Shown here piece by piece: positions 15,700 to 58,059 of a stretch of 64,000 nucleotides of DNA. The stretch is from Rhyzopertha dominica. Taxonomy: Eukaryota > Arthropoda > Insecta > Coleoptera > Bostrichidae. Made by a program: the position numbers and the translations under genes. The stretch is taken from NCBI GenBank assembly GCA_025024175.1, contig QCXZ01000053.1, positions 13,516,001 to 13,580,000 of the forward strand, written 5' to 3'. The notes under the pieces are model-generated. The model was not told where the DNA came from. It worked only from the letters and a program-made list of their open reading frames with translations, and did not search any database. Position 1 is the first letter of the stretch, and each line of letters begins with the position of its first letter.

Positions 15700-15969
15700 C
15701 AAGTCACCTTGTGACCTCCATAAATGTGGCAACTAAGCCAGAGGTAGAAGCGGCTATAACATACCTGATTTTTGGAAGTCATAGGGTAGCTTGTGTGATT
15801 ATTATATACGACTAATTAAAATTAAGAAATCCTTTCCCCTCTTTAGGAATTCTGGTTAATTAGGTTCCCCTCAACTCATATATACACTTATATATGGGAT
15901 ATCTATACGGGATCACCCGGAGGCTAGGTCGCCTCTTACGTGTGCCGGAGGTGACAGCTTACCGCGTAT

Positions 15970-16014
<45 letters not shown>

Positions 16015-16085
16015 GCGTTTCTTAGGATTTCTATTAATAAATTTGTGTTCAGTTCATGACTGGTTTTCTTCATTTCAACAAATTT
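15700..16085 (-). repeat. Second, inverted copy of the (TA)n-linked dispersed repeat
   Basis: 15971-16085 is the inverted copy of 8259-8372, including a (TA)n tract (about 15971-16010). Beyond the tract (15700-15970) are GTGACCTCC and CCGGAGGTGAC motifs like those at 8685-9030. It begins about 70 bp downstream of the DDX47 exon 2 donor, so its open frame is read-through, not protein. Confidence 0.75.
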
Positions 16086-16154
16086 AAAAAACTGAACTCC
16101 GACGATGGACATAAATTGTTCATAATAATAAAATAAAGTAAAACAGTCATGTAC

Positions 16155-16817
16155 CTTAAATTTGGCCGGCATAAAAATATAGTGTTGTTCCAACTTCTCA
16201 ACAGTTTGATATTTGGTAGACACCTCCACTTTAACTGGATCCTTTAAACAAGCTCTCTGCAGTTTTTTCACCTTCTTCGTCATAGTGGCAGAAAACAAAA
16301 ACGTCCTGCGCTCCCTCGGAATCACCTTCAAAATCTTGCTGACCTCCACCTCAAAATCCATGTTCAAAATTCTATCAGCTTCATCCATCACCAAAAATTT
16401 TATAGGCCTTAGATTGAAACCTTTAGTGTTAATCAAATGGTCCAATAATCGCCCGGGAGTTGCGATCAAAATGTGAGTCTTCTGTCTGAGAAGTAAAGCC
16501 TGTGATTTCATGTCCATACCGCCAACTAGGACAGCACACTTTATGCCGATACTAGCACCTAGAGCTTCAAATTGTTCTGAAATCTGAAACGCGAGTTCTC
16601 GGGTAGGTGTTAAGATCAGGGCGAAATGACGCCTTGGATTCTCGAGCAAAGCTTGTAGAATTGGAAGGGCGAATGCTGCAGTTTTACCAGAGCCAGTCTC
16701 TGCTAATCCAATGACGTCTTTGCCTTGTAGCGCAACTGGTATCGCTTCTTTTTGTATTTTTGATGGTTCTTTCCATTGTAGTTGCTCACAGGCATTACAC
16801 AGCACGTCTACCAAACC
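16155..16817 (-). CDS. DDX47: DDX47-like DEAD-box RNA helicase, exon 2 (RecA-like domain 1)
   Basis: This exon encodes most of the first RecA-like domain of an ATP-dependent RNA helicase of the DDX47/Rrp3 family, nucleolar enzymes needed for pre-rRNA processing and small-subunit assembly. Visible motifs in order: Q motif ([11 protein letters not shown]), motif I AETGSGKT, Ia [10 protein letters not shown], Ib TPGRL, motif II DEAD, motif III SAT. It ends at ..PAKFK. Acceptor CAG|GGTTTGG and donor TTTAAG|GTACATG bound 221 codons. DDX47 is preferred over other DEAD-box proteins because the flanks of DEAD ([15 protein letters not shown]) and KYQTVEKL are characteristic. Translation past the donor runs into intronic repeat and a (TA)n tract and is not coding. 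Confidence 0.93.
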
Positions 16818-23765: not shown

Positions 23766-25186
23766 AACGAGACGTATCTTCCTGAATCGTATAATAACAG
23801 CATTGTACCCTGCAAGTTTAACAGATTGTCGCTTTAGATTGAACAAAATATACTATTATAGTGAACAAAAGCGTAATTGAAAAATAGACCTATCTTTCTG
23901 ACTCATAATACCAGAATTATAACCAGCTAGCATAATAGATTGTGTCGCTTTAAATCAAACAAATTAGTCCCGTATACTATTATATTAAGCAAAAGCGTTA
24001 TTAGAAGATAGACATGTTTTCTTGACTCATATAATACCAGCATTGCACCCAGCAAGCAAAACAGATTGTGTCACTTTAAATCACACAATATAGTCCCTTA
24101 TACTATTATATTGAACAGGAGCGTTATTAGAAGCTAGACGTAACTTCCTGATTCATATAATACCAGCATTGTACCCAACAAGCATTACAGATTATCTCGC
24201 TTTACAGCAAATAATATAGTCCCTTATACTATTATATCAAGCAAAAGCGTTAGAAGCTAGACGTATCTTCCTGATTCATATAATAACAGCAATGTACCCA
24301 GCAAGCTTAGGAGATTGTGTCGCTTTAAATCAAACAATATAGTTCCTTATACTATAATATTGAACAAAAGCGTTTATAGAAGGTAGACGTATCTACCTGA
24401 ATCATATAATACAAGCACTGTACCCAGCAAGCATAACAGATTGTGTTGCTTTAAAGCAAACAACATAGTCCCTTACTCTAACACTAGTATATCGAGCAAA
24501 AGCGTTATTAGAAGCGAGACGTATCTTCCGTACTCATATAATACCAGCATTATACCCAGCAAGCATAACAGATTGTCTCGCTTTACAGCAAACAATATAG
24601 TCCCCTATACTATTATATTGAACAAAACCGTTATTAGAAGCTAGACGTGTTCTCCCGACTCGTATAATACCAGTATGGTACCCAGCAAGCATAACAGATT
24701 GTGTCGCTTTAAATCAAACAATTTAGNCCNTTATACTATTTATATTGAGCAAATGCGTTATTAGAAGATAGACGTATCTTATTGACTCATATAATACCAG
24801 CATTGTACCCAGTTAGCATAATAGATTGTGTCGCTTTAAATCAAACAAATTAGTCCCGTATACTATTATATTGAGTAAAAGCGTTATTAGAAGCTAGACG
24901 TATCTTCTTGACTCAATAATACCAGCATTGTACTCAGCAAGGATAACAGTTTGTGTCGCTTTAAATCAAACAATATAGTCCGTTATATTATTATATTGAA
25001 CACAAACGTTATTAGTAGCTAGACGTATCTTCTTGACCCATATAATCCCAGCATTGTAACCAGCATGCATAACAAATTGTGTCGCTTTAAATCAAACAAT
25101 ATAGTTCATTATACTATTATATTGAACAAGAGCGTTATTAGAAACTAGACGTACCTTCCTGACTTATATAATACCAGCATTGTACC
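23766..25186 (+). repeat. Satellite B array
   Basis: About 11 monomers of 120-125 bp with landmarks GACGTATCTTCCTGATTCAT, ATAATACCAGCATTGTACCC, AGCAAGCATAACAGATTGTG, TCGCTTTAAATCAAACAATA, TAGTCCCTTATACTATTATA and TTGAGCAAAAGCGTTATTAG. The array is interrupted by an errantivirus after TACC (25183-25186) and resumes at 33452. Confidence 0.93.
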
Positions 25187-25458
25187 AGTAATTTTATTGG
25201 TTATTGCCAATAAGTTTTTAAAAACAATTTATTTTAACCAAAATACAACGGTTAATATGTGAATACAAGTACCAAGCTATAAAACTACGACCGAACTAAC
25301 TCTACTAGCCTTAAGTGCTATTTATTACTTTTCCTTATCGGAATAAATGTCTACTCAGCTTTCGCTCTAAGTCGCACATCTACAGAGCGCGCCGTGGCCT
25401 CGGTCCTGATACGGGAGAGGCCGATGTCCCTGGGGTGTTCATATGGAAGGACATAACT
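25187..25458 (-). repeat. Errantivirus 3' LTR
   Basis: 272 bp, matching 33180-33451 except for one base. It is preceded in the sense direction by the polypurine tract and should supply the polyadenylation signal. Confidence 0.95.
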
Positions 25459-25469
25459 CCTCCCTCCTT
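25459..25469 (-). promoter_or_regulatory. Polypurine tract
   Basis: The sense strand AAGGAGGGAGG lies immediately upstream of the 3' LTR and should prime plus-strand DNA synthesis. Confidence 0.85.
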
Positions 25470-25479
25470 AGAAGGGAAA

Positions 25480-27159
25480 CTACCCTTGGTAGTTGAGCGT
25501 TTGTTCTTTGTCCTTGACTATGGTCGTTGGGGTACGATGGCACGGCTTTGCGGGCTGAGTTGCTGAAACCGTTCTTCGTTTTGCAGCCCAATAGGTTTTA
25601 AGTTTTAGGCACTTAAATCCCATAAAAATGATTGCACTTCCCACCAGGATGTACACCAGGATATTTACCGCACTGTGAACACTGGCATTTGGTAATTTGA
25701 CGAAATGTTTTTCGACGGTGTCACGGGTGGTTTGCAGTTTCCTTTCCAAACCTCGTACGTAGCCGGTGTTGATTTCTTCTAGGTGTAGTGGTTGGATTTG
25801 ATGGACGTTGTCCTCGTGAGGGACGTCGATGTGTACCAGCTGGGGTAGCTGTATTTTCTTTCTTGTAAACGATATCCTGTTGTGGGTTTCCAGTACGTTG
25901 TTTTCTATGGTTAGGCTGCACTGGTCTAATGTTTCAATGACATACGTTCCACGTAGAGGGATGTCTTCGTGGACGGTCCCGCAGGTTTGCTGAGCCACTG
26001 TCAATTTGGGTACGTGGAGGATCCATGCAGATTCCTTAATTTGCTCGATAATTGGACCTTTTATTGCCACGGGCATGTATTGGCAATGCGCTGGTTTTTC
26101 CACGAATTTCGTTAATTGTATTTCACAGGGTACTCGATCGGTCCATGAACTTTCTTTTGACGGTGAACATATATAGCCTGAATCTTGAATTTCTTTACAA
26201 CTTGGCGAGGTGATGAAGTGGTTTGAGTTTTCTAGGAAGTAATGGACTGAAGGAATCAGGATAAGATTTCGCGTATTTGGAATGGGATATATTTCAAAAT
26301 AGTTATAAGTCTGACATTTTACTGTAGCAAGTTCCAGAATGAAAGTTATTTGTCTCGATTTAACATATGCTTTTACGACTAATAATTTTTCAATGGCAAT
26401 TAGGTTGTCGGCATTTACATCGAAAGGAAAGCAATATGGCTTAATGAGATTTGTTACATTTTGTATTTCTTTCAAAAGAATATTTGAGCTTGTTATCGCG
26501 CCATGAAATGTTTGCGATCTAGAGAAAGATATAGCGGTTTCTATATTGTTAAGTATATCCATCATTATTTGCAAAGTTAGGGAGAATTGAGAAATTACTG
26601 TATGTGTTAAGAAGTAGTTGTACAGATTGACGTTGTGAATTTCGGATTTGTGAAAGGCTGCCTCTATTTGCATGATTTTGGATTCTAATTGAATTTGGTT
26701 TTTCTTTAGTGATTCTATGTTTGCCTGAAAATTAGAAATAGCGTCGTTCATGATAGATATTTGATTGGTAATTGCATTTTTCAGATAATTTTGATTATTT
26801 CGCAAAGTGTTGATTGCACTATCGTATTTCTGTGCGTCCTCGTTATCAAGATTTCCTGTCAATGCTTTAATAAATGTTCCTAAAGGATTTAATAATCCGC
26901 GTTTAATTCGTGAAGCTGGAATAATTTGTTCAAGTTTAAGTTCTATTTGAGTGAATAGATTTGATGTTATATTAATAGAATTTTCGTAAGCTCCTTTATA
27001 TTGATCTGAATATGATGAACGATTTATGCCAATATTCAAAGAGTGAAATGATGATTTTAAGAAAGTATATTCTTCAAGGAAAGGTTCCAAATTTAGGATG
27101 TGTACAAAGGACCATTTCGAGTGTTTGACGTAGGCGTCACCAAGTTTTACGGGAAGCAT
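25480..27159 (-). CDS. env: Errantivirus Env, baculovirus F-like fusion protein
   Basis: 559 codons starting eight bases after the pol stop. There is a furin-like cleavage site RIKR at residues 84-87, followed by a hydrophobic fusion-peptide-like stretch GLLNPLGTFIKAL. The following segment (LTGNLDNEDA) is typical of the baculovirus F / errantivirus Env family. Coiled-coil-like heptads occupy roughly 110-180, cysteines cluster in 240-420, a membrane anchor lies at about 496-516, and a basic cytoplasmic tail follows. A strong signal peptide is not evident at this ATG, so the true N-terminus may come from a spliced env mRNA. The frame is intact, in contrast to pol. Confidence 0.88.
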   Translation of the reverse strand: MLPVKLGDAYVKHSKWSFVHILNLEPFLEEYTFLKSSFHSLNIGINRSSYSDQYKGAYENSINITSNLFTQIELKLEQIIPASRIKRGLLNPLGTFIKALTGNLDNEDAQKYDSAINTLRNNQNYLKNAITNQISIMNDAISNFQANIESLKKNQIQLESKIMQIEAAFHKSEIHNVNLYNYFLTHTVISQFSLTLQIMMDILNNIETAISFSRSQTFHGAITSSNILLKEIQNVTNLIKPYCFPFDVNADNLIAIEKLLVVKAYVKSRQITFILELATVKCQTYNYFEIYPIPNTRNLILIPSVHYFLENSNHFITSPSCKEIQDSGYICSPSKESSWTDRVPCEIQLTKFVEKPAHCQYMPVAIKGPIIEQIKESAWILHVPKLTVAQQTCGTVHEDIPLRGTYVIETLDQCSLTIENNVLETHNRISFTRKKIQLPQLVHIDVPHEDNVHQIQPLHLEEINTGYVRGLERKLQTTRDTVEKHFVKLPNASVHSAVNILVYILVGSAIIFMGFKCLKLKTYWAAKRRTVSATQPAKPCHRTPTTIVKDKEQTLNYQG

Positions 27160-27166
27160 TCCGACG

Positions 27167-29656
27167 TTACTCTTGATTTCCCGAATTTGAGGTGCAGGGG
27201 TCGTTTTGTCTGTCAGTACCGTCGTCAGGTATCTGTAATTTTGAATTTAATTTTGGTCTGAGTTCCTTGACATGAGTAATAAATAATTTATTGTTTGTGG
27301 GGTTTAGAATTGAAACTCTATTATGCTCTAAAAGTTCAACAATTTTGAAAGGACCGGCATAACGATTCGAGGACTTGTTCCGAGAACTTCCGTGTGCCGT
27401 GATATATACCATGTCGTTAACTTTGAAATTGTGAATTTTGGGTTCATGTACTTCATTTCTTGTTTGTTTTCGTTCCTGTTCTTTATGTGTTACTTGTTCA
27501 TAAAGAGATTTTACTTTGTCCGCATGAGAATTTACGTAGTCTGTATAAAAATTTCGATTTGTCAGAATGGAAGGGTCTCTCAAATTCGTGTGGCCATAGA
27601 CCAATTCGAAAGGTGTATAACCAGTAGTTGAATGAATCGTATTATTGTAAGCTATTATTACATATGGTACTAAATCTGTTTCGTTAGGATACTGTTCTTT
27701 TAATAACCTGTAATGTTCTAACATTGTGGAATGAAATTTGTTCACAGGTGCATTACCATCATGATGATTCGGTGTGGTAAAGTGCACTTTGATTTTGTGT
27801 GAATTTAGCAGATTTTTAAAAGTTTCTGATTTAGAAAAATAAGATGCGTTATCGGTGACAATTTGTTCAGGAATTCCGTATGCAGAGAAAAATTTAATAA
27901 ATGCGTCACATATGTTAGTCGAATTTTCGGCGACAATTTCATATGCTTGAGCGAATTTTGAAAACTTGTCTATGAATGTTAAATATTTGCGTTTGCTTAG
28001 TTGAAATACGTTGGCATGAACAATTTGGAATGGCCTGGAAGGAGTTTCCGTTAAAACTTGTGGTGTATCTACTGAAATTCTAGAATACTTTGCTCTTTGA
28101 CAAATTTCACACGCGTTTATGAATTCATTGATGTCCTGTTTCATTTTGCACCAATAATAATTTCTTTGTATCTTTTCTAAGGTTTCTGAAATACCTCGGT
28201 GATTGGTCTTTGACTCGTGATAGTTTTGGATAATTAAAAGTTTTTCGTCTTTATCGTACAGGGTGTTAACTAATTTAGAACAAGATATTATTTTTGTAAT
28301 TTTGGGGTCAAAATCTTTGGTGTACACTTCATTAAAAGTGTTATACAAATCTTTCGTCCTGAAGTACATGTATGCAGTTTTCCCTGGAATGATTCTTTCA
28401 AGTAACAGTTTTTTAATAAGTACTCTATTAAAAGTCGGAATTGATATGTCGATAATTTTGTGTGTCCCGTCTTGTCGTTCTGTCAGAGTTATAGTCTGAA
28501 GAGGGTTGTGACTTATGCGTAGTTGATATGGTTTATTGTTAACAATTTCGTCTAATATTGGTATTGGGTCGCGAGATGTAAAATTGTTCGAGGAATGCAC
28601 AGTGTGACTTTTAATGGGCGGTCGGATTTGTATGTTCGAAATTATATTGATTCTCCTAGATTGATTGCTTGGGTTTTTTCTTACTGGGGATTCCAAAATT
28701 TCTTCAACTTTTATGTTGGGATCAATTTCACCATCAATTAAAATTTCACTTAAAATTTCGTCCAATTCATTATCGCTCATAAATTTTGAAATGTCTGAGT
28801 TTATGTCTCCTGGCTGATTAATGACTGAATCTGTTTCTAATGCGTTCAATTTTGCATCTGTTACTGTTTTATCGGTATAATTACATACTAGGATTTTAAT
28901 GCCTGAATTTGAAAATATGTGATTTAAAATTGATCTTACTTTTGACCAGCTAAGTTTATCTAAGCCACATCCTAGTTTCGGTATTGCTAATTTCGTAATT
29001 TTATCGTTTTTCAGGGATCGTTTTAAATCGACCAATGCTTTAAATAAGTCTGAATACAAAGGTTTGTCGAAATACTTATTTTTAGTTATCAGATAATACA
29101 AATTTCGGTTTTCAGTTTTCAGTGATGCTACTTCTCCGAGATTTTTGTTTTGTGAAATGAGTTCGTCTATTCCTCCAAATTTATTTTTGATTCTTAGAGC
29201 TAAGTCAGCATTCATGAAAAAGTCTTTCGATACGCAATGGGCTAAGGCATAATCACATGGTAGTGAAAGAATATCCTTGTTTACCTCTGTATAACACGGG
29301 CAACTATCAAAATTTGTGGATTTCAAGAAGTCGTTGTAATTTAGATCTTCAGGAACTGTTATTCTGCTTAACGCATCAGCATTAGCGTTTAGTTTTCCTT
29401 TTTTATAAATGATTTCATAATCATATTCTTCCAACCTAAGTCTCCACCTGACTAATTTAGAATTTGGCTCCTTTAACGAAAATAGCCACACAAGCGGTCT
29501 GTGATCGGTGTAAATTTTGAAGTGCCTACCAAATAAATAAGGCCTGAAATGTTTTACTGCCCATACTATGGCCAGTAATTCCTTTTCAATAGTAGAATAA
29601 CGAGTTTCTGACTGATTTAGCGTTCGAGAAGCATAAGCAATAGGTCTATCCTGAGG
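27167..29656 (-). CDS. pol: Errantivirus Pol, second part: RNase H end, TARG1-like macro domain, integrase
   Basis: In frame from just after the break. Numbering is from codon 29491. The RNase H end runs to about residue 45 (NADALSRI). Residues 75-205 match the macro-domain family of TARG1/OARD1 (ADP-ribose-binding hydrolases): [34 protein letters not shown] and [12 protein letters not shown]. Lys137 and Asp178 sit at the positions of the TARG1 catalytic Lys and Asp. A linker follows, then the integrase HHCC zinc site (H425, H431, C461, C464) and core. The core keeps the middle acid (D547 in VTDNAS), but the expected first Asp and last Glu positions read Asn (HANVF at 494, VNKFHS at 584). A GPF/Y-like C-terminus ([11 protein letters not shown]) is present. 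A macro domain is not part of the usual gypsy Pol. Confidence 0.88.
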
Positions 29657-31494
29657 GGTGAACCTTGAGACAATACTGCTCCAATAGCGTAATTAGAGGC
29701 GTCAGTAGTTAATATAAATTCTTTGCTGAAATTTGGATATTGGAGAATTGGATCATTACATAATAATTTTTTACAGGTTTCAAAGCAATTTAGAAATTCC
29801 GGAGTGTGTTCTATCTTTGCATCTTTTTTTAGACAACTTGTAAGTGGTATGGTTACCTTTGCAAAATTTTTAATAAAGCGGCGATAATACCCGAGAAGGC
29901 CTAGGAATGATTTTATATCACGAGATGTTTTTGGAACAGGAAATTTTTTTATGATTTCGATTTTATCTGGGTTCGGACGTACACCATCTTTACCAATAAT
30001 ATGACCTAAGTACGGAACAGAGTGACACAAAAATTCGGATTTGTCAAGTTGAATTTTTAGATTTGCCTTTCTTAAACGAGTAAATACGTCTCTTAACCTT
30101 TGAATGTGTTCCTGTAATGACGTGGAAAATACTATGATATCGTCCAAGTATACAAGGCATTTTTCATTTTGTATTCCTCTTAAGATGTTGTCCATGACGC
30201 GCTGAAATGTCGCAGGCGCATTTCTAAGGCCAAATGGCATTCTCAAAAATTCGTATTTTGCGTTGTTAACAGAAAAAGAAGTTTTTGGGACATCTTGGGG
30301 ATCTACCTCTATTTGATGAAAACCGGATGTGAGATCAAGTGTCGTGAAATAATTACAGTTTCCTAGTTTGTCTAAAATTTCAGTAATATTTGGTATTGGA
30401 TATTTGTCGTTAATTGTTCTTTCGTTTAGCTTTCTGTAATCAATGACTACGCGCCATTTTTGTTTCCCGGATGCATCTTTCTTCTTCGGTACTATCCAAA
30501 CTGGAGAATTCCACGGAGAGTTTGACGGTTGTATAATTCTTTGTTTTAGCATTTTATCGATTTGGTCTTGTATTTCGCCTTTATGAATTTCTGGAAAGCG
30601 ATACGATTTTGTGGATATCGGGGTATCGTCTTTCAATTTAATTGAATGTTTAATCTGATTCGTAAATGAGAGTGGCAACTGATCACAATATAGGATGTCT
30701 CTAAATTCATAACAAAGTTTACGAATAGCCTCGTATTCCTCTTGATTTAGGTGCGATAGTCGCAAATTTTTTAAATTCTGTTTCATAAATTTATCAATTA
30801 AATCGTGGTCGTCATAAAAGTTTTTTTCGATAAAATTTTGTTCTGTTTGCTCAGTTTCAATGTATGGTTCCAAAATAAAAGGTGTTTCAATGTTTAGCGT
30901 TAATTGTTCTTCGCTTTTATTTAATATTGTAACAATAGCGAAATTATTTTTGACGGTAACAAGACATTGTGGTATTTCTACATTTTTACCAATTTTTGTG
31001 TAAGGAAGTATTCCTTCTTTAGTTGGGCATTGAACCGGAATTTTGATGACCTGTTCTGATCGTGGTGCCAAGGTTTGTACCATAGGTAAATAATGAAAAT
31101 TAACGTTCTTTAGCGGCTTCGTTTGGTCAGAATTTTCGTTTTCCAAAAGTAATTTTATAGACTTATTTTTTGGTAATTTTAGTAATTTGTGTTCACAATC
31201 TATCTGGGCATGAACTTGGCTTAATAAGTCAAAACCTATTAGTCCATCATATTTAGGCGAGAAATTAAAAAGATAAAATTTGAAATTTTTACTTGAGGGG
31301 AAATTTTGCAATTTTGGCAGATTAACGACGGAGTCATGGTAAGTCGTACCATGCGAGGTTGAAACAGAGAAATATTCGTTCGCAATGAATTGTGGAAATA
31401 ATTTTTGCGCTAAATTTGGTGACATGAAGCTACGTGTAGAACCTGTGTCGACTAGAAATTTAGCATTTAGGTCTGGCGTATAAATATGGGGCAA
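29617..31494 (-). CDS. pol: Errantivirus Pol, first part: protease, reverse transcriptase, start of RNase H
   Basis: Retropepsin with the DTGS active site at residues 16-19. The RT runs from about residue 290 to 480, with motifs [35 protein letters not shown] and the catalytic YLDD at 449-452. The connection and the first RNase H block ([16 protein letters not shown]) follow. The frame then shifts after a G/C run at 29655-29658 and ends in unrelated residues. The upstream frame is open into the gag end, so the first listed codon is not a true start. The family polyprotein would continue unbroken, so the break is a defect of this copy or an assembly error in a homopolymer. Confidence 0.9.
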
Positions 31495-31520
31495 ATTTTT
31501 TATATTAAAGCTATTGAATT

Positions 31521-32786
31521 CTAAGTTTTGTTGTCGTCTTGGTCGGTCAGATAAAAATTTGATTGATCATCTTCAGGTACAAAGTTTTGTGGGTCTTCGT
31601 CGTTGGTTTCGTCTGTCATTTGTTCGAATAATTCGACTTGTTCGTCTTGGGGTTCATCAATCTCCTGATCTGCATGATTTAATTCCTCTGCTACCCAATT
31701 AGGCCTAGCAGTTGGCGTGAAATAATTTTGTTGTCTTGGAAAGTGAGAGAAATTTCGTTTTGTTGATTTAATCGAAGATACACTCATTGGTGTCGGTCTG
31801 TACTGATTGGGATTGGCTCTTACGCTTTGATTATTATTTGGGGTTTGAGTTGGCTTTGGTTTGCCAAACACTTGGGCATTTGTGAAGAATTTTTGCGGTT
31901 TATAGACCGGCTGGATATTAATCGGGTTCCGGGGAAACGGAACGGGCTGTGAAGTAGACGGCTGTGCATGATAATTTTGAGAAAAACTTTGTGCTTGACT
32001 GTATTGTTGCGGCATTGGTTGTAATGGTGGTCTGAATAAATAATTACCTGGGGTAACCTTTCGTATCGGATTCGACCTTTGAGCAACATTAAGCGAGTTT
32101 GAGATATTCTGAGAATACTTGAAATTTTCTTCTTCTATAACAATAGCTAATGCGTCTTCAATTGATTTTGGATCCTTCATTCTTACCATCATCTGTATCT
32201 GACTCGGAATGTGTCTAATGAAAGTTTTTAAAGCGAGATCATCATATGTTTTATTCATTATGATTTTTTCCGGTGCGCTAAATGGTGACAAATTCACTTT
32301 TGCTCTAATTAGCTCGCGTGTGTCTTGACATCTCTGACCAAAGTTAAACGTTGTTTCGTTTTTGAATGGTTTCAAAACTAATAAATCTTGAATAAGACAC
32401 TCAACACTTCGTTGGTCCGCGAATGTACTAATTAATGTGCGTTTTAACACTTCCCATGTTTCAATTTCGGTGCGATTACCAATCAATAATAACGCTCGGT
32501 CTCTTAATTTACCTAATACGGCATTAAAAAGTGTGTCATTAATTGGATCGGCAGGGTTGTCCCTGTTCGCGTATTTTCTGAAAAGTCGTTCACTCGAGTT
32601 TAAAAATATGTTTAACGTGTGGGCGCTCCCATCGTAAACATTAATGCTATCTAGATCTAATTTTAAAAGAGTGACGTTCACTTCTCTATTAGCCATTGTA
32701 GTATTTGAATCTATTGATTCTGAACAATTTTGACTGTCGAATTTTAAAACTTGATTCAGTAGGACAGTAATGTCCTCGACAGACAT
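31521..32786 (-). CDS. gag: Errantivirus Gag
   Basis: 421 codons. The first half resembles a gypsy-type Gag capsid region (YDGSAHTLNIFL near residue 50, WEVLKRTLISTF near 131, and a helix-rich segment to about 220). The second half is rich in Pro, Gln and Asn, ending in an acidic tail. No CCHC zinc knuckle is present, as usual for errantiviruses. Its role is assembly of the particle around the RNA. The stop lies where the pol frame, -1 relative to gag, is already open (overlap near 31520-31540), so Pol is probably made by -1 frameshifting. Confidence 0.88.
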   Translation of the reverse strand: MSVEDITVLLNQVLKFDSQNCSESIDSNTTMANREVNVTLLKLDLDSINVYDGSAHTLNIFLNSSERLFRKYANRDNPADPINDTLFNAVLGKLRDRALLLIGNRTEIETWEVLKRTLISTFADQRSVECLIQDLLVLKPFKNETTFNFGQRCQDTRELIRAKVNLSPFSAPEKIIMNKTYDDLALKTFIRHIPSQIQMMVRMKDPKSIEDALAIVIEEENFKYSQNISNSLNVAQRSNPIRKVTPGNYLFRPPLQPMPQQYSQAQSFSQNYHAQPSTSQPVPFPRNPINIQPVYKPQKFFTNAQVFGKPKPTQTPNNNQSVRANPNQYRPTPMSVSSIKSTKRNFSHFPRQQNYFTPTARPNWVAEELNHADQEIDEPQDEQVELFEQMTDETNDEDPQNFVPEDDQSNFYLTDQDDNKT

Positions 32787-33163
32787 ACAATTATATTGAA
32801 ATATATAAAGGAAATAAATGTAAGGTACTCATAGGATTATTATTATATTCTTCATCTGTGGTACTAATTCCGATGCTCTTGGCGTTGGATGGTCCCTATG
32901 ACCTGGTTTGCGTCTGAAGTCTGGTGGTCCGTATTCAGCGGTGGCACCTGGGGGATCTTCTAGACGAAGGTTTTTTCCGATGCTCTCAGCGTTGGATGGT
33001 CCCGATGACCTGGTTTAACGTCTAAAGCCTGGTGGTCCGTATTCAGCGGTGGCACCTGGGGGATCTTCTAGACGGAGTTCGTTGTTTTTCTTGGTTCGCG
33101 TAAGATAAACGGGTAAACGGTAAAAACCGACGATTCCGTATACTGCGGCGATATCTCCCGTTA
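32787..33163 (-). repeat. Errantivirus 5' leader with 107-bp tandem duplication
   Basis: Within the leader, the blocks starting at 32870 and 32977 (CCGATGCTCT..GGCGTTGGATGGTCC) are direct tandem copies of about 107 bp with few differences. Errantivirus leaders are known to host regulatory repeats (for example gypsy insulator sites). Here the role is unknown. Confidence 0.8.
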
Positions 33164-33180
33164 TCCTACTGACTGCGCCA
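33164..33180 (-). promoter_or_regulatory. Primer binding site, tRNA-Ser type
   Basis: Directly after the 5' LTR the sense strand reads TGGCGCAGTCAGTAGGA, with its first T shared with the LTR end. This fits the 3' end of tRNA-Ser, as used by several errantiviruses of the 17.6/297 type. The tRNA identity is inferred from that known match. Confidence 0.75.
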
Positions 33181-33451
33181 GTAATTTTATTGGTTATTGC
33201 CAATAAGTTTTTAAAAACAATTTATTTTAACCAAAATACAACGGTTAATATGTGAATACAAGTACCAAGCTATAAAACTACGACCGAACTAACTCTACTA
33301 GCCTTAAGTGCTATTTATTACTTTTCCTTATCGGAATAAATGTCTACTCAGCTTTGGCTCTAAGTCGCACATCTACAGAGCGCGCCGTGGCCTCGGTCCT
33401 GATACGGGAGAGGCCGATGTCCCTGGGGTGTTCATATGGAAGGACATAACT
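33180..33451 (-). repeat. Errantivirus 5' LTR
   Basis: 272 bp, sense start AGTTATGTCC and sense end AATTACT. It should carry the promoter for the genomic RNA. A single base differs from the other LTR (TTGGCTC here, TTCGCTC there on the plus strand). Confidence 0.95.
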
Positions 33452-34390
33452 TACCCAGCGAGGATAACAGATTGTGTCGCTTTAAATCAAACAATTTATT
33501 CCCGTGTACTATATATTGAGCAAAAGCGTTATTAGAAGCTAGACGTATCTTCTTGACTCATATAATACCAGCATTGTACCCAGCAAGCATAACAGTTTGT
33601 GACGTTTTTAATCGAACAATTGAGTCCCGTATACTATTAGATTGAGCAAAAGCGTTATTAGAAGCTAGATGTATCTTCTTAACTCGTATAATACCAGCAT
33701 TGTACTCAGCAGATTGTGTCGCTTGAAATCAAACAATTTAGTCCCTTATACTATCATATTGAGCAAAATCGTTATTAGAAGCTAAACGTATCTTCCTGAT
33801 TCATATAATACCAGCACTGTACCCAGCAAGCATAACAGATTGTGTTGCTTTAAAGCAAACAATATAGTCCCTTACACTAGTATATCGAGCAAAAGCGTTG
33901 TTAGAAACGAGACGTATCTTCCGTACTCATATAATACCAGCATTATACCCAGCAAGCATAATTGTCTCGCTTTACAGCAAACACTATAGTCCCCTATACT
34001 ATTATATTGAACAAAACCGTTATTAGAAGCTAGACGTGTTCTCCCGACTCGTATAATACCAGCATGGTACCCAGCAAGCATTGTGTCGCTTTAAATCAAA
34101 CAATTTAGTCCCTTATACTATTTATATTGAGCAAAAGCGTTATTAGAAGATAGACGTATCTTCCTCACTCATATAATACCAGCATTGTACCCAGCTAGCA
34201 TAACATTGTATTGTTTTAAATCAAATTAGTCCGTATACCATATATTGAGCAAAAGCGTTATTAGAAGCTAGACGTATCTTCTTGACTCATGTAATACCAG
34301 CATTGTACCCAGCAAGCATAATAAATTGTGTCGCTTTAAATCAAACAATATAGTCCCTTATACTATTATATTGAACAAGAGCGTTATTAG
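33452..34390 (+). repeat. Satellite B array
   Basis: Continuation of the array interrupted at 25186, with the same monomer landmarks. It passes into satellite A at GTTATTAGACGGTCG (about 34384-34398) without a break in the tandem register. Confidence 0.92.
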
Positions 34391-56550: not shown

Positions 56551-57127
56551 GACACTAAAATTAAATACATAACAGGCACTTTTTATAATTAAACTTCTTA
56601 ACACTTACTGTTAACTCCAAATATTAAAGGAAACAAAACGACGAAAACATATAACTTTGTAAAGGAATAAACTATTACAGAATGCCGTATGGCAAAACTG
56701 AATATATAATTAAAAGGTGTCCAACCGTGAAATTGACAAAACTGACAAAATTTTTCGACATAATCAAGGATAGAGTTGTTGAACAAGCTTAAAATTCATG
56801 AGCGATTTATCAAATATAAATATTATTTAAAAATTCTATATATAAATTTTAAGTTGTATTATTTCTTCTTAGTTTAACACTGTCAATTTGAAGAAGTTGG
56901 CAATAAATAGAACTAAGATTTTGTATATCTGACCTTTTGTTAATAGAATTGGAATTTTGTTGTATATAACACATTTCTAAAAATAAACGTTTTGATTTAT
57001 TAGCTTCTATGTCTAAAATTGCAGTATTTAGGAAACCAAAAGAATGTCCGGTACTAGATGCATGCTGAGCTAAAGCACAACGATCTGGACGTAGACGAAC
57101 NTCACTACGATGTAGGTTCAGTCTTGT

Positions 57128-58059
57128 TCTACCTTGTTCTACAAACGTTCAATTCTTTCGATCAATACTTAGAATTCACAATTGAACTTGAAGAAAATAA
57201 TTCCATTCCTTTTCTTGATACTAAAATAATTCGTACTCAAAATAACAGTTTAATTTTAGATTGGTGTCAAAAACCCACCTCATCTGGAAGATATATAAAT
57301 TACTATTCTGAACATAATTTCCATATAAAACTAAATCTTGTTAAAGCTTTAAAAAATAGAATTGAAAAAATTACACATCCGTCCCTTACACATCAAGCTT
57401 TACACAGATTATATAAAATACTTTTACATAATAGCTACCCACGTCATTTAATTATTAAATTATTATTTGGTAGTAACAATTCAAGGACTTCTGTTAATAA
57501 CACCACATATAGTCAGATAAGTCAAGATCACTTAGTTAATCTTCAAAATATAGTATTTGCATCTCTTCCATTTATACCTAATTTAACACATAAACTTACA
57601 AAAATTTTTAACGTAGTTCCAAATTTAAAAATTGCAAAATACTATATAAAAACTAATAAAAAGTTGTTCTCAAAACTTAAAGATAAAATTGACAAAAATA
57701 AAAAAATGAATGTGATTTATTGTGTTGAATGTCTGGACTGCCCCTCTGTTTATATTGGACAAACCATGCAGTCTTTACAACACAGACTGAACCTACATCG
57801 TAGTGATGTTCGTCTACGTCCAGATCGTTGTGCTTTAGCTCAGCATGCATCTAGTACCGGACATTCTTTTGGTTTCCTAAATACTGCAATTTTAGACATA
57901 GAAGCTAATAAATCAAAACGTTTATTTTTAGAAATGTGTTATATACAACAAAATTCCAATTCTATTAACAAAAGGTCAGATATACAAAATCTTAGTTCTA
58001 TTTATTGCCAACTTCTTCAAATTGACAGTGTTAAACTAAGAAGAAATAATACAACTTAA
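57128..58059 (+). pseudogene. PLE polyprotein C-terminus: RT end plus GIY-YIG endonuclease
   Basis: The open frame starts at 57058, but its first 23 or so residues are antisense of the nuclease region created by the inverted junction. True PLE sequence starts near 57128. Using the 333-residue frame: the RT tail has SIPFLDTKI (49-57) and KPTSSGRYINYYS (72-84). A linker follows, then a CxxC-type lead (CVECLDCPS). The GIY-YIG nuclease then has VIY (219-221), YIGQT (232-236), Arg243 and the probable catalytic Glu292 (LFLEMCY). The polymerase core (YxDD motif) is missing, so it cannot retrotranspose by itself, but the nuclease region looks intact. Confidence 0.85.

Follow-up and report, generated by a model that had tools for sequence, protein, structure and literature searches.

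TARG1 (OARD1, C6orf130), the terminal ADP-ribose glycohydrolase, is a stand-alone cellular enzyme of macro-domain fold whose substrates are ADP-ribosylated acidic residues and the ADP-ribosylated terminal phosphates of double-stranded DNA and of single-stranded RNA (PMC8053099), as well as ADP-ribosylated thymidine in DNA, with K84 as the catalytic lysine of the human protein (PMC8501950). Other macro domains include the bacterial DarG, the antitoxin paired with the toxin DarT, and those lying within the polyproteins of alphaviruses, coronaviruses and rubella virus, all of them RNA viruses. Among reverse-transcribing elements, teleost epsilon-like endogenous retroviruses (ERVs), which belong to the Retroviridae, have acquired macro domains as additional open reading frames (ORFs) (PMC4977317, citing Basta 2009), whereas none was met in the literature listings for errantiviruses, the insect Metaviridae of the gypsy group. 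The titles and abstract openings of the papers listed in literature searches, mostly from outside the subscription journals, mention no Metaviridae macro domain; in the text available, the words metavir, retrotranspos, integrase and TARG1 are absent from a survey of NAD-ADP-ribose functions in 21,191 viral proteomes (PMC9503650), and the words macro and ADP-ribose from a survey of insect ERVs (PMC12992720). Here, we describe an errantivirus-like provirus within 64,000 nucleotides of the genome of the beetle Rhyzopertha dominica (contig QCXZ01000053.1, positions 13,516,001 to 13,580,000; hereafter the window, whose numbering is used throughout). Unlike the stand-alone TARG1 and the additional ORFs of the fish ERVs, its macro domain is part of a Ty3-type Pol frame, between RNase H and integrase.

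The macro domain was identified in a 143-residue piece encoded on the reverse strand (28862-29290), which matches residues 3-135 of human TARG1 with a phmmer E value of 4.3e-33, and of 1.3e-48 when a 14-row profile is used. The two sequences are 40-43% identical, and in a structure comparison the predicted fold of the piece was closest to TARG1. A preliminary description, made from the sequence alone, had proposed a TARG1-type domain in an errantivirus Pol, and this identification is borne out; the domain search also agrees with its placement between RNase H and the integrase zinc finger, and both the errantivirus-like context and the presence of more than a linker at that point hold. In the profile check proposed there, the Pfam Macro score (17.7 bits) stays below the cut-off of 22. 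With the DarG model the window copy reached 40.9 bits against a cut-off of 250, and the viral macro domains had a lower structural score (about 14). The NAAN catalytic motif, which MacroD-like viral macro domains have in place of the TARG1 lysine block, is absent here. As for the extent, the domain does lie at the proposed span of 28870-29275, but the cassette to which it belongs is larger (28853-29359) and includes a leader of 23 residues preceding the macro piece.

The two blocks with residues of catalytic type, also pointed out in the preliminary description, are in place: YYLITK (Lys70) and GCGLDKLSW (Asp111) align with human YYLITKK and GCGLDRLQW, respectively. We take the lysine of LITK to be the equivalent of K84 of human TARG1, and the aspartate of GCGLD to have a catalytic role. 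Lys70 and Asp111 are among 14 columns invariant across 14 divergent Pol copies (six rows from the same genome, Harmonia, one Uroleucon, five from other sources and one record with a fungal name). Across 68 own-genome loci, which include one host gene exon and from which two duplicates had been dropped beforehand, the lysine is kept in 66 (exceptions L014 and L018). The position of the aspartate is covered in 64 of them, of which 58 keep it; those without it are L037-L040, L045 and the related L067, with a decayed domain. The altered adenosine-side motif MNADLA, in turn, does not stand as a family feature. At macro position 29, the 22 loci of the own family (L001-L022, 84-100% identity) have G in 19 cases, W in two and D in one, the window copy; since the G-to-D change is found in one locus of 22, the window copy may be a poor binder of ADP-ribose without this holding for its family.

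The provirus is laid out as follows, from its 5' end on the reverse strand:

25187-33451, reverse strand: whole provirus, errantivirus-like (8,265 bp)
25183..25186, with its partner at 33452-33455: target site duplication TACC, read from the flanks
33180..33451, reverse strand: 5' long terminal repeat (LTR), 272 nt, one mismatch against the 3' LTR
31521..32786, reverse strand: gag ORF, 421 aa
29617..31494, reverse strand: ORF with aspartic protease, reverse transcriptase (RT; RT piece 30016-30552) and the start of RNase H
29360..29742, reverse strand: RNase H, its frame broken in the window copy
28853..29359, reverse strand: cassette, 169 codons in frame, between ...NADALSRI and KLNALET...
28862..29290, reverse strand: TARG1-type macro domain
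29204-29206, 29081-29083 and 28958-28960, reverse strand: private G-to-D position, Lys70 codon and Asp111 codon of the macro domain
28214..28606, reverse strand: ordinary RNase H-integrase linker domain of these elements
27764..28255, reverse strand: integrase zinc finger (H2C2) and core (rve)
25480..27159, reverse strand: env ORF, 559 aa, Baculo_F E 1.2e-19
25187..25458, reverse strand: 3' LTR, 272 nt

The gene order (gag, protease-RT ORF, RNase H-integrase ORF and Baculo_F-type env) is the usual one, and the element shares with errantiviruses the LTRs (here of 272 nt), gag, the Ty3/gypsy Pol order of protease, RT, RNase H and integrase, the F-type env and a short target duplication (here TACC). 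In the domain search, the gag ORF gave weak scores to Ty3_capsid, SCAN and Retrotrans_gag, all under the cut-off. Elsewhere in the same genome, unbroken frames of 1466 aa hold seven own-family macro matches. At the LTR end, the stretch TGGCGCAGTC resembles a primer binding site of tRNA-Ser type. Given that the LTRs differ at one position, the insertion, which lies in a 126-bp satellite array, is probably young.

The domain is not restricted to the window copy. In the beetle genome (479 Mb), 121 stretches match it, a figure that is not a copy number, since a copy in several pieces counts more than once and 150 of 171 candidates were scored. This rules out a one-off capture or a misassembly, which the preliminary description had considered should the domain be missing from all sibling copies. 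Besides the own family, other groups lie near 60, 55, 48, 46, 38 and 30% identity. Where tblastn also placed RT or RNase H, together with integrase, in the fetched loci, the macro match falls between RNase H and integrase, except that in four loci of a decayed family it was under the reporting threshold of that placement. A single contig, C86 (26.3 Mb, 5.5% of the genome), carries 41 of the 121 stretches and may be a sex chromosome or another sequence rich in retroelements. An exon resembling a host TARG1 gene was also found (L066:1473-1817, forward strand), and the 3.3 kb fetched at this locus matched neither RT nor RNase H nor integrase. As this exon is 42% identical to the window domain, and human TARG1 40-43%, a recent capture from the host's own TARG1 is not supported.

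Protein database searches returned eleven Pol proteins with a macro domain (P0002-P0012), from the ladybird Harmonia axyridis, the aphids Uroleucon formosanum (two) and Schizaphis graminum, a record named Erysiphe pulchra and six others (lgn, jgi). Ten of the eleven have the domain in the position seen in the window, between RNase H and integrase. The exception is the Erysiphe-named P0012, where it occupies residues 1278-1409, after the integrase at the Pol C-terminus; this is possibly a second architecture, or possibly contamination, as the record is a 6.5-kb contig. P0008 bears the database name O-acetyl-ADP-ribose deacetylase, and macro domains in such Pols are thus already in databases, without comment. 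The two Uroleucon proteins (P0006 and P0007) are listed with extra Pfam domains beside Pol, such as PF12017 and PF21787-21789, presumably of P-element type, and are probably fused gene models. TARG1-like proteins with 31-39% identity to the window domain were also seen in 12 phage records (Lactobacillus, Bacillus, Lysinibacillus and Fusobacterium phages and one uncultured), several being duplicates of one phage. A scan of viral contigs for relatives gave ten pattern matches, none of which was a relative. The leader, whose approximate pattern is Y/F-x-x-F/Y ... N/V-x-x-E ... D/N-L/I-F/L, is also found in families of the own genome and, among the proteins compared, in P0002, P0004, P0008, P0009 and P0010; P0003 shows no evident leader. 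This recurrence suggests, without proving it, one ancestral insertion of leader plus macro domain. On the macro tree, the 20 Pol macro rows left when the fungal-named one is set aside stand to one side of a branch with support of 60/74.9, which does not establish that they share one origin.

Nine families, chosen from the RT list for their lack of a macro match there, have the linker alone, and these include the nearest family by RT (82%). In one of them, L071, the sequence ADALSRI-KLNALETQSI runs on, whereas the own family has SRI and KLNALET directly flanking the 169 codons; a contiguous junction, ADALSR-x-x-[ILV]-N, is common to seven of the nine. On a tree of RT and RNase H (27 rows), presence and absence of the macro domain are interleaved, with at least three changes of state. 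Two groupings, both formulated after this tree was seen, are rejected on it, namely the nine macro-less families as one clade (approximately unbiased test, p 3.8e-6) and the own family with L023, L029 and L044 as one clade (p 2.5e-10), which together rule out simple vertical inheritance of the cassette. Because of the contiguous junction in seven of nine macro-less families, the own family probably gained the cassette, in which case a macro-bearing relative would have been the donor, through recombination or template switching; repeated losses instead of a gain are possible. On the macro tree, the own family clusters with the L023 and L044 groups (support 89-90/97). The RT grouping of L023 with the L044 group is not rejected on it (p 0.118), so that cassette swapping between these two is suggested solely by their macro divergence: dN is 0.281 for the macro domain, against 0.067 for RT, 0.031 for RNase H and 0.097 for integrase in these close families, a pattern that we read as either fast change or exchange.

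What is observed, then, comprises the presence and position of the domain, its occurrence in several Pol families, the conservation of Lys and Asp, a between-family dN/dS below 1 and a clean presence or absence of the cassette. The reading that we favour, at about even chances, is that this Pol domain, with its catalytic-type Lys and Asp in place, is a predicted active ADP-ribosyl hydrolase that likely strips ADP-ribose added by host PARPs from cDNA ends or from Pol. The enzyme would work through a lysyl intermediate and, as part of Pol, would be carried into particles and kept close to RT, integrase and cDNA; host PARPs would mark cDNA ends, Pol or Gag with ADP-ribose against retroelements, and its removal would shield the DNA or proteins of the element, a counter-defence role that the preliminary description had likewise put forward as an inference. 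Removal from cDNA ends or Pol is favoured because the free ends of linear cDNA are substrates of the TARG1/PARP3 type, PARP3 being known to modify blunt DNA ends (PMC8053099). Insects may use ADP-ribosylation as a defence against retroelements; Tribolium, also a beetle, has PARP12-like proteins (PMC4245714).

Several observations weigh against this reading. The between-family macro dN/dS values of 0.15 (own family-L023), 0.20 (own family-L043), 0.24 (L023-L044), 0.26 (L023-L043) and 0.42-0.48 (L031, L032 and L047 versus the L023 group) are rough, as dS is at least 1.0 and often saturated, and they are not comparable with those of RT and RNase H, which are nearly always saturated between families; pairs with the damaged copy L020 gave 0.48-0.72. 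Over the short time scale sampled by 16 recent own-family copies, the macro domain is less constrained than RT, RNase H and integrase: its mean dN/dS is about 0.54, while theirs are 0.05, 0.21 and 0.18, respectively. The cassette is not essential to all elements, since the nine macro-less families manage without it and others keep an Asp-less version. Moreover, insect-only alphaviruses have lost macro catalysis, which is attributed to the few PARPs of insects (PMC10221186, PMC7729036).

The same evidence bears on other explanations. Host PARPs, PARP12-like or otherwise, could place mono-ADP-ribose on Gag, Pol or host factors, and the domain could erase it, as is thought for viral Mac1; this is possible, if rather doubtful. 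TARG1 does act on acidic residues (PMC8053099), the Tribolium PARP12-like proteins fall in a branch that includes antiviral PARPs (PMC4245714), and the excess of macro dN between L023 and L044 resembles an arms race, but cassette exchange could also yield faster change and the TARG1 class also acts on nucleic acids. An unlikely alternative is that the domain binds ADP-ribose or poly(ADP-ribose) on chromatin and guides the integration complex to damaged or modified sites, hydrolysis being incidental. Its position upstream of integrase in ten of eleven proteins would suit such a tether, human TARG1 reaches damage sites in a poly(ADP-ribose)-dependent manner (PMC8053099), and a study of chikungunya virus in mosquitoes reports that the critical function is binding and not catalysis (PMC12632316); such strict retention of Lys and Asp would, however, be needless, and the fungal-named copy sits at the opposite end of Pol.

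We consider it improbable that a captured host domain is retained mainly as a folded linker. Asp-less decayed versions persist in open frames (L037, L039, L040 and L045), the ordinary linker is itself predicted to be folded without the binding helices, and the ratios reach 0.48 between some families and about 0.54 among recent copies. On the other side, Lys and Asp are invariant in the 14 rows, the other between-family ratios are 0.15-0.26, and the macro-less families keep open Pol frames with a shorter linker. Finally, chance similarity, misassembly or a host gene lying beside a retroelement can be practically dismissed: no supporting point was found, and they are refuted by the strength of the match (E 4.3e-33), the occurrence of 22 loci of the own family and of further families on several contigs, and the same architecture in other species.

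Macro domains also occur in decayed and tandem form. Pol copies L037-L041, L045, L067 and L068 have a decayed macro domain, lacking the Asp where it is covered; that of L039 was confirmed as macro, and the integrase of L037-L045 is closest, among the loci compared, to that of the Harmonia element (50-55%). In the Harmonia axyridis Pol (P0002), a second, decayed macro domain follows the intact one in tandem (residues ~600-735) and was confirmed, while a second macro domain in L043 was rejected. The linker (28214-28606, reverse strand) is predicted to have a macro-like fold without the two helices at residues 29-46 of the macro model, which is weak structural evidence. By sequence, homology of the linker to macro domains is not supported (hhalign probability 0.1 in the profile comparison; E 0.04 or worse for the linkers listed with a hidden Markov model of macro alignment A2).

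Tentatively, and as a possibility rather than an expectation, insect Ty3/gypsy viruses may reuse macro domains repeatedly: an active TARG1-type eraser in Pol would move among co-resident families as a 169-codon cassette, decay and be replaced, and the ordinary errantivirus linker would be a worn-out remnant of an older macro domain. If true, insects would attach ADP-ribose to the DNA or proteins of retroelements, a line of defence that is not known to have been sought. Viral macro domains are known from RNA viruses that face vertebrate PARPs. It can be argued that ADP-ribosylation matters to the elements of insect genomes, because TARG1-type catalytic residues are kept in several retroelement families, and that reverse-transcribed DNA is the indicated substrate, since TARG1 and DarG act on nucleic acids. 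Membership of the TARG1 class makes a simple substrate test possible.

The surroundings of the provirus consist of long satellite arrays of ~123 and 126 bp in both orientations (20976-54113), the provirus lying inside a 126-bp one. A 281-aa ORF with a DEAD-box helicase domain is found at 15969-16814 (reverse strand), and a 333-aa ORF at 57058-58059 (forward strand), with a GIY-YIG nuclease domain barely above the cut-off (24.3 versus 22.6 bits), possibly belongs to a Penelope-like element.
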